The notes under the pieces were generated by a model. It searched no databases. It was not told the origin of the DNA and saw nothing but the letters and a program-made list of their open reading frames with translations. Of a stretch of DNA of 64,000 nucleotides, positions 6,154 to 58,869 are shown one piece after another. Origin of the DNA: Oscillospiraceae bacterium (GTDB lineage Bacteria; Bacillota; Clostridia; Oscillospirales; Ruminococcaceae). Made by a program: the position numbers and the translations under genes. Location of the stretch: NCBI GenBank assembly GCA_021769525.1, contig JAETSQ010000001.1, positions 1 through 64,000 on the forward strand, read 5' to 3'. Each line of letters starts with the position of its first letter. The stretch's first letter is position 1.

Positions 6154-6255
6154 CGCTGCCCTGCGAAAAGTTCGCCATTCTTCTTTTTGCTTCTTTTTCT
6201 TCTTTTGCAAGAAGAAAAAGAAGGCAGGGGCCGGGGCGGCAGCCCCGGAATCGGG
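6154..6255 (+). repeat. Dispersed intergenic two-hairpin element, copy R1
   Basis: CTTCTTTTTCTTCTT-TTGC-AAGAAGAAAAAGAAG followed by CCGGGGC-GGCA-GCCCCGG; related to copies at 7897 and 27421. Confidence 0.85.
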
Positions 6256-7896: not shown

Positions 7897-8015
7897 GCGC
7901 AGATTTTGGGATAGCCTGCTGCGTTGTAAATACTTTGGGCGTTCTTCTTTTTGCTTCTTTTTCTTCTTTCGCAAGAAGAAAAAGAAGGCAGGGCTGGGCG
8001 GCAGCCCAGATTGGC
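7897..8015 (+). repeat. Dispersed intergenic two-hairpin element, copy R2
   Basis: CTTCTTTTTCTTCTT-TCGC-AAGAAGAAAAAGAAG followed by CTGGGC-GGCA-GCCCAG; shared flanks gcgcagatttt...tgtaaatactttgg and attggc with R3. Confidence 0.9.
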
Positions 8016-27306: not shown

Positions 27307-27420
27307 GGTTTAGGACGGCCTCCTTTTTTCCGGATTTTTGGTTCCACCTGATTATAGCCTGTTTGGAGATAGGGTGCAAGGGGCCGGGGAGCGTGGGGAG
27401 TGTCCCAACGAGGAGTTAAA

Positions 27421-27540
27421 GCCAATCTGGGCTGCCGCCCAGCCCCGCCTTCTTTTTCTTTTCACGGGAAAAGAAAAAGAAGCAAAAAGAAAAGCGGCCA
27501 AAGTATTTACAGCGTAGTGAATCGACTTAAAATCTGCGCA
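27421..27540 (-). repeat. Dispersed intergenic two-hairpin element, copy R3 (inverted)
   Basis: Reverse complement reads CTTCTTTTTCTTTTC-CCGT-GAAAAGAAAAAGAAG then CTGGGC-GGCA-GCCCAG. Confidence 0.9.
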
Positions 27541-27562
27541 ATTTGGACACTTCCGGGAGAGT

Positions 27563-27609
27563 ACAAAAAAACAGAGGGACGCGGGTAAGGCGTCCCCCTG
27601 TTTTTTTTA
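27563..27609. terminator. Bidirectional intrinsic terminator
   Basis: aaaaaaacagagggacgcgggtaaggcgtccccctgtttttttt. Confidence 0.85.
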
Positions 27610-35814: not shown

Positions 35815-36006
35815 CCTGCGGGGGGAACCCCTCCGTCAGCTACGCTCAGCCCTAACGGGCCGCTTCGCGTCCCTTCGGGCACGTGGGCTACGCCCAACCT
35901 CCCCTTTCAGGGGAGGCTCTGGCGGGGCGCAAAGTTATCCTTTCTGCCAAGGGCTCCCCTGAAAGGGGAGCTGGCATTTCCCGAAGGGAAATGTCTGAGG
36001 GGTTCT
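35815..36006 (+). repeat. Intergenic hairpin-module mosaic repeat, member P1
   Basis: ctaacgggccgcttcgcgtcccttcgggcacgtgggctacgcccaacctcccctttcaggggaggctctggcgg...ggctcccctgaaaggggagctggcatttcccgaagggaaatgtctgagggg; near-identical to P2. Confidence 0.92.
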
Positions 36007-40686: not shown

Positions 40687-40881
40687 CCTGCGGGGGAACC
40701 CCTCCACCGCCTCCGGCGGCCAGCCCTAACGGGCCGCTTCGCGTCCCTTCGGGCACATGGGCTACGCCCACCCTCCCCTTTCAGGGGAGGCTCTGGCGGA
40801 GCGCAAAGTTATCAGTTCTGCCAAGGGCTCCCCTGAAAGGGGAGCTGGCATTTCCTGAAGGGAAATGTCTGAGGGGTTTTC
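40687..40881 (+). repeat. Intergenic hairpin-module mosaic repeat, member P2
   Basis: Near-identical over ~190 bp to 35815-36006. Confidence 0.92.
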
Positions 40882-54330: not shown

Positions 54331-54526
54331 TTGTCGAAACTCCCTCAGTCAGCCTGCAGCTGACAGCTCCCTCTGGGAGGGAGCCTCCAGCCTGTCGCCT
54401 CCGCCAGGGCCTCCCCTGAAAGGGGAGGTTGGGCGTAGCCCACGTTCCCGACCGCAGGGAGGGATGAGCGAAGCGAGGCGGAGGGGTTCCCCCGCGGGGC
54501 CAAGCCTCCCTCGGCGAGGGAGGCTT
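54331..54526 (-). repeat. Intergenic hairpin-module mosaic repeat, member P3 (inverted vs P1/P2)
   Basis: cctcccctgaaaggggaggttgggcgtagcccacgttcccgaccgcagggagggatgagcgaagcgaggcggaggggttcccccgc. Confidence 0.88.
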
Positions 54527-58755: not shown

Positions 58756-58832
58756 GTGCGGCTGCTCCCTCCGCCTCGCTTTGCCCATCCCTCCCTACGG
58801 TCGGGAAGGGACGCGAAGCGGCCTGTTAGTGG
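58756..58832 (+). repeat. Intergenic hairpin-module mosaic repeat, member P5 (rearranged)
   Basis: cctccgcctcgctttgcccatccctccctacggtcgggaagggacgcgaagcggcctgttagtgg. Confidence 0.7.
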
Positions 58833-58869
58833 TAACCCCCCGGATCCGCCAACAGCAGGTTTGAACTCT

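Follow-up and report, generated by a model that had tools for sequence, protein, structure and literature searches.

A high-copy intergenic repeat of Clostridia with a core predicted to fold into a pseudoknotted triple helix

The closest described systems are the BoxC/PIT/TM_ECO repeats (Holder et al. 2015, PMC4666352), which are short, intergenic and present in high copy number, and each of which has three tracts able to form a single triplex. The definition of an intrastrand triplex (ITxF) used for them comprises Hoogsteen, pyrimidine and purine tracts in this order, 6–15 nt long, with loops of 1–6 nt, and TM_ECO has no known role in promoters or mRNA (PMC4666352). Bacterial triplex repeats have so far been catalogued from sequence patterns and folding in vitro. 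The main paper gives no indication that the triplex is preserved in evolution, and the text of PMC4666352 contains no analysis of covariation or compensatory change. H-type pseudoknots with a third strand in the major groove are represented by the SAM-V riboswitch (PMC6061858) and telomerase RNA (PMC4689454), whereas bacterial MITEs and REP/BIME elements offer comparisons for the dispersal of such repeats.

Here we describe a repeat found in about 100 copies between genes of a gut bacterium, some of them within a small transposon-like element. Copies R1, R2 and R3 lie in the window, the whole 64,000-nucleotide stretch of DNA that was analysed. The repeat resembles BoxC/PIT/TM_ECO in length, intergenic position, copy number and three-tract organization, its tract order being that of class IV of the BoxC/PIT/TM_ECO paper on one strand and of class II on the other (PMC4666352). 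Unlike TM_ECO, which is G/C-rich, of the purine motif and proteobacterial (PMC4666352), it is A/T-rich, of the pyrimidine motif and found in Clostridia. Its core has a different sequence, which does not fit the TM_ECO/BoxC consensus CCCTCNCCC..GGGNGAGGG..GGGNGAGGG, and a loop-tail pseudoknot and MITE ends come in addition. The predicted fold shares its H-type topology and major-groove third strand with SAM-V and telomerase RNA, but its helix S1 has only 2 bp and its triplex 11–14 triads, versus a third strand of 7 nt in SAM-V (PMC6061858). Also unlike SAM-V, the repeat has no fixed 5'-UTR position, its orientation being inconsistent, and it reaches about 100 copies per genome. It is similar to bacterial MITEs in its size of about 160 bp, terminal inverted repeats (TIRs) of at least 12 bp, target duplications of 8–9 bp and absence of an ORF; however, conservation is much stronger in the inner core than in the ends and flanks, and many copies lack those ends. 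With REP/BIME it shares intergenic palindromic mosaic units, some of them arrayed in another genus, but it has no tie to a Y1 (RAYT-type) transposase.

Copies of the repeat and organization of R3

A 12-mer stem arm matches the window ten times with at most one mismatch, versus 0.08 matches expected in shuffled sequence. The stem pattern was found at 100 sites of the source genome (2.04 Mb, 46 contigs) with at most three mismatches and at 99 with at most two, whereas the reversed pattern, used as a control, was found at none. The set comprised 92 copies from this genome and 65 from others, of which G503 contributed one.

The first-pass annotation had described R3 as a dispersed two-hairpin element. 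Dispersal holds genome-wide, but the unit is bigger than the annotated extent, and only the first hairpin is conserved: the second is of several types across copies and is absent from some. The comparison of R3 with R2 was accurate. Stem positions 13 and 15 are altered on both arms, 15 of the 15 pairs are retained, and the loops are CCGT and TCGC as given (Table 1). That annotation missed the third strand, the loop-tail pairing and the MITE ends with target duplications. The neighbours of R3 are two minus-strand genes, one of the SIMPL family and one for a nitroreductase; R3 comes just after a terminator-like hairpin.

The stem is directly preceded on its 5' side by a pyrimidine tract, whose sequence is TTCTTCTTTTT in both R1 and R2 and, in R3, CTTTTCTTTTT. 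This tract mirrors the half of the stem's 5' arm that adjoins the loop and can therefore lie in the groove as a parallel Hoogsteen third strand (T.A-T, C.G-C). C.G-C triads require protonated cytosine, at a cost in stability at neutral pH. The dinucleotide 5' of this tract pairs antiparallel with two bases of the loop (helix S1). Together S1, the third strand and the stem (S2) can apparently make an H-type pseudoknot with a third strand of 11–14 triads. As judged from the sequences, the conserved object is thus probably a pseudoknotted hairpin with a third strand, not merely two hairpins.

Table 1. Positions of R3 and its parts, of the sister copies and of other features in the window
Feature	Coordinates	Strand	Remarks
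R3 full-length MITE, 159 bp	27396..27554	-	TIR spacing common to 15 full-length copies, mostly 159–163 bp
R3 5' terminal inverted repeat GGAAGTGTCCAAA	27542..27554	-	
R3 3' terminal inverted repeat TTGGGACACTCCC	27396..27408	-	
R3 imperfect target duplication	27387..27395	.	7/9 match to 27555..27563; exact duplications in other copies
R3 tail dinucleotide CG	27495..27496	-	predicted to pair with loop CG (helix S1); covariation with loop
R3 third strand CTTTTCTTTTT, 11 nt	27484..27494	-	predicted parallel to purine arm
R3 single-G linker	27483..27483	-	near-constant across elements of both genera
R3 stem-loop CTTCTTTTTCTTTTC-CCGT-GAAAAGAAAAAGAAG	27449..27482	-	
R3 stem S2 pyrimidine arm	27468..27482	-	
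R3 tetraloop CCGT	27464..27467	-	
R3 stem S2 purine arm	27449..27463	-	
R3 second hairpin, GC-rich	27427..27442	-	type differs among copies
Terminator-like hairpin	27576..27596		R3 comes just after
R1 core	6176..6223	+	tail CA, loop TTGC, linker 6189
R1 core parts	third strand 6178..6188; stem 6190..6204 with 6209..6223	+	
R2 core	7940..7987	+	tail CG, loop TCGC, linker 7953
R2 core parts	third strand 7942..7952; stem 7954..7968 with 7973..7987	+	
R2 stem-loop CTTCTTTTTCTTCTT-TCGC-AAGAAGAAAAAGAAG	7954..7987	+	
Second dispersed GC-rich hairpin repeat family (CTCCCCTTTCAGGGGAG and neighbours)	35830..36004; 40704..40878; 54400..54485; 58767..58840		
Ribosomal protein L10 leader, RF00557	46635..46813		sole Rfam match in the window

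Covariation of the stem, the third strand and the loop-tail helix

The outcome named as refuting the first-pass reading was a larger alignment with mismatched stems as frequent as paired ones. In an alignment of 42 distinct cores, 99.7% of the stem cells and 96.4% of the loop-tail cells are standard pairs, versus only 67–75% in shifted controls, and five stem pairs are altered on both sides. For S1 and S2 combined, 99.3% of the cells are paired, versus 94.7% after shuffling, and the covariation score of 0.206 (0.111 after shuffling) was reached in 0 of 500 shuffles, which leave relatedness uncorrected. Pairing across the alignment and the two-sided stem changes thus support a structure conserved through compensatory change. 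With a mean column identity of 89%, the wording 'without conserved sequence' was an overstatement.

The tail-loop combinations are CG/CG (109), CA/TG (33), GG/CC (7), TG/CA (3) and TT/AA (3). Watson-Crick pairing at both tail-loop positions is seen in 155 of 165 elements (mean 85 and maximum 102 after permutation), and 466 of the 489 triads in 43 distinct cores are canonical (mean 394, maximum 426 in 2000 permutations), neither permutation being corrected for relatedness of the copies, most of whose variation sorts into a few subfamilies. The exceptions at the changing tail-loop pair include three G.T wobbles and no A.C; across the 42 distinct cores this S1 pair is G-C in 29, A-U in 9 and G-U in 3. 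Both features looked for in an H-type pseudoknot with an L1 major-groove triplex, covariation within S1 and covariation between the third strand and S2, were thus found. The loop of one element, L169, is inverted (GGAA), which disrupts its loop-tail pairing.

The third strand also follows rare stems. For the stem CTTCTC/GAGAAG a tract CTCTTCTTTTT was predicted in advance, and L074 carries exactly that. Stems with CTTCC/GGAAG are accompanied by the tract TTCTTCTTTTC, and L077 combines the stem CTTCTTTTCCTTTTC with the tract CTTTTCCTTTT. Changes in length are tracked too (AAGAAAAAAG with TTCTTTTTTC; AAGAAAAAAAG with TTCTTTTTTTC). L052 also has CTCTTCTTTTT, with 10 nt duplicated inside its third tract. 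In a search for stems that was blind to the third tract, the tract was present at 15 of the 22 stems found over 400 kb of the source genome and at 3 of 3 in the window. The remaining seven stems belong to a second subfamily, in which the third strand is shorter and imperfect (8/10). This subfamily, GTTCTTTTTTG CTTCTTTTTTCTCA [CGGG/CCGG/CCAG/CGAG] TGAGAAAAAAGAAG, has about seven sites per 400 kb (e.g. L235, L239, L240, L244 and L247 of the source genome), and in it tail CG occurs with loop CG and tail GG with loop CC. With a third strand of 11–14 nt, a loop of 3–4 nt and a gap of 1 nt after the third strand (5 nt if the clamp at the bottom of the stem is open), the elements fall within the ITxF limits. 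No report of the three strands of a triplex changing together in bacterial repeats was found in the literature searched.

Elements of other sequence that obey the same rule occur in one genus of a different family of the same order, namely in G503 (MAG RGIG9149, from water deer), G433, G484 and G464 (one copy, with a mismatch); an example is CTTTCCTTTCTCTT / CTTCTCTTTCCTTTC / GAAAGGAAAGAGAAG. The geometry is constant across the two genera, with a one-base G linker and a number of triads equal to the stem length minus four (15 and 11, 17 and 13, 18 and 14, respectively). A scan of G503 (338 kb), again blind to the third tract, found the tract at 29 of 30 purine-pyrimidine hairpins. In this genus a GC hairpin stands before the third tract. 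At gene ends in one segment of G503 (L211, C17:20001-40000) elements are arrayed in tandem, in twos or threes, at a spacing of about 150 bp, with different subfamilies mixed within each array.

Elements at the same loci were compared with G002 (MAG Angelakisella sp. RACS_027; at least this genome and G503 are metagenome assemblies), whose genes are mostly 85–90% identical to those of the source genome. Ten loci carry an element at the same place and in the same orientation. At about half of them, R3 included, the stem is of a different type in the two genomes, with a third strand that differs accordingly, and at two (L001/L098 and L034/L099) the tail-loop pair has also switched, from A-T to G-C. 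Other sites differ in the presence of an element; for example, G002 has elements at L137, L101 (two) and L120 where the corresponding places of the window are empty. The second genus and the same-locus switches are stronger evidence of covariation than the shuffles and permutations, from which kinship is not removed.

Mobility and candidate partners

Both TIRs (consensus GGGAGTGKCCAAA...) are present in 15 copies, mostly 159–163 bp long, and seven copies are bordered by exact or near-exact target duplications of 8–9 bp (e.g. TATAAAGGC, TTGGAAGA, GCCGCTTTT and GTTTTTTC). No such duplications were found with mismatched flanks in the source-genome and G002 sets. These copies thus have the two hallmarks of MITEs, inverted termini and target-site duplication. 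About 80% of the copies have no recognisable inverted repeats, and the 5' and 3' modules around the core are mosaic between copies, suggesting that the core either moves together with several kinds of context or persists in them.

No autonomous partner was found among the Y1 and IS256-type transposases sought. An IS256-type partner was suggested by the 8–9-bp duplications and the end sequence; none is encoded in the source, G002, G503 or G433 genomes, of which at least G002 and G503 are MAGs, a type of assembly that often misses IS copies, and the ends of the IS256 copies in G001 do not match. The source genome has one Y1 transposase, whereas Y1_Tnp is absent from the element-bearing G002 and G503 and present 15 times in the element-free G001, which speaks against mobilization by Y1/RAYT. 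The main type has no exact match in viral contigs, and two viral matches of the other type are runs of pyrimidines that lack a purine arm. Searches gave no phage match and, for plasmids, one weak match in Haliovirga. No mobilizing gene was recognized in two dense clusters: judged by names read off translations, L211 has ordinary genes and L133 has parA, parB and serS. In L133, a G002 locus, five elements surround these three genes, and the one immediately 5' of the serS start is a variant with a lengthened triplex. Rfam gave nothing above the gathering score on the cores tested in other loci.

Explanations and significance

We consider it fairly probable that this is a mobile repeat whose core is selected for a triplex-pseudoknot fold of a single strand. 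R3 would be a copy of a repeat that is, or once was, mobile and whose full form is a MITE of about 160 bp, and selection would keep the fold of the pyrimidine-rich strand within the conserved 48-nt core. In this fold, the two bases 5' of the third strand would pair with two tetraloop bases (S1), and the 11–14-nt pyrimidine tract would descend the major groove of the 15–18-bp stem S2, parallel to the purine arm, and connect to the other arm via the single G. The result would be an H-type pseudoknot with a pyrimidine-motif triple helix. We infer that it forms in the cell, as RNA or single-stranded DNA, and serves the element rather than the neighbouring mRNA, perhaps by marking the element for a transposition partner acting in trans or by blocking polymerases and nucleases between transcription units.

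Genes around the copies were called within this analysis with codon models. The copies are intergenic and have no strict orientation to genes in the two genomes examined (7 -E-, 6 +E+ and 3 +E- in the source genome; 9 -E-, 9 +E-, 5 +E+ and 3 -E+ in G503), which makes an mRNA regulator unlikely. Accordingly, control or protection of host transcripts by a structure in the 5'- or 3'-UTR is an improbable function, even though a few copies stand immediately before ribosome-binding sites, such as that of serS, and the stop codon of an antisense next gene is often 11–40 nt from the purine arm; R3 itself sits past its terminator-like hairpin. For action at the level of DNA, orientation would be immaterial. 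An intrastrand, H-DNA-like triplex in supercoiled or replicating DNA, working as a supercoil sink or replication roadblock in the manner of BoxC/PIT/TM_ECO elements, is a possibility that we take seriously but doubt. It is consistent with the lack of strict orientation, with the frequent position of copies directly past terminators, between transcription units, and with the opposite strand, which has the class II purine-motif arrangement, a triplex that forms in DNA (as defined in PMC4666352). On the other hand, the 4-bp clamp at the bottom of the stem is compensated (CTTC/GAAG, CCTC/GAGG, GTTC/GAAC, GTAC/GTAC and others). The clamp thus pairs and leaves one linker base, which would suit A-form RNA better than B-DNA. 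In addition, G.T exceeds A.C among pyrimidine-strand exceptions in both main-family helices, in small counts over distinct cores. The one-base linker across the paired clamp and the few wobble exceptions slightly favour RNA over DNA.

The two remaining accounts dispense with the triplex. If the copies were plain intrinsic terminators, their T-rich tracts would merely resemble a third strand; the plus strand of R3, a GC hairpin followed by the pyrimidine arm, does score as terminator-like, and the other genus has its GC hairpin ahead of the third tract. However, a T-tract cannot explain C positions that match the stem base by base, coordinated length changes of three strands are left unexplained and the T-run does not come immediately after the hairpin, so that we give this account very little credence. 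Hardly more credible is the recent spread of a few master copies without structural selection, the third tract being a by-product of tandem duplication. High copy number and strong identity agree with it, and the tract is partly like a direct repeat of the arm (mean 0.84 in the best register). Nevertheless, a direct or Watson-Crick copy is perfect in 7 cores versus 32 for the mirror, and the mirror model in a fixed register against the direct-repeat model in its best register gave 29 wins, 9 ties and 5 losses; direct-repeat and alternative-hairpin accounts of the tract fitted less well. Mirror repeats are not produced by ordinary copying, and the same rule holds with different sequences in another family.

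In two genera the third strand changes in step with the other two, at individual bases and in length. The existence of such triplexes in cells thereby becomes directly testable, and structural work would gain a long natural triple helix, of RNA or DNA, that comes in many variants. More tentatively, the core may be a transcribed RNA domain with 11–14 consecutive pyrimidine-motif triads closed off by a 2-bp pseudoknot, which mobile repeats of two or more Clostridia families carry and need in order to be maintained. If so, it would represent a new class of natural structured element.
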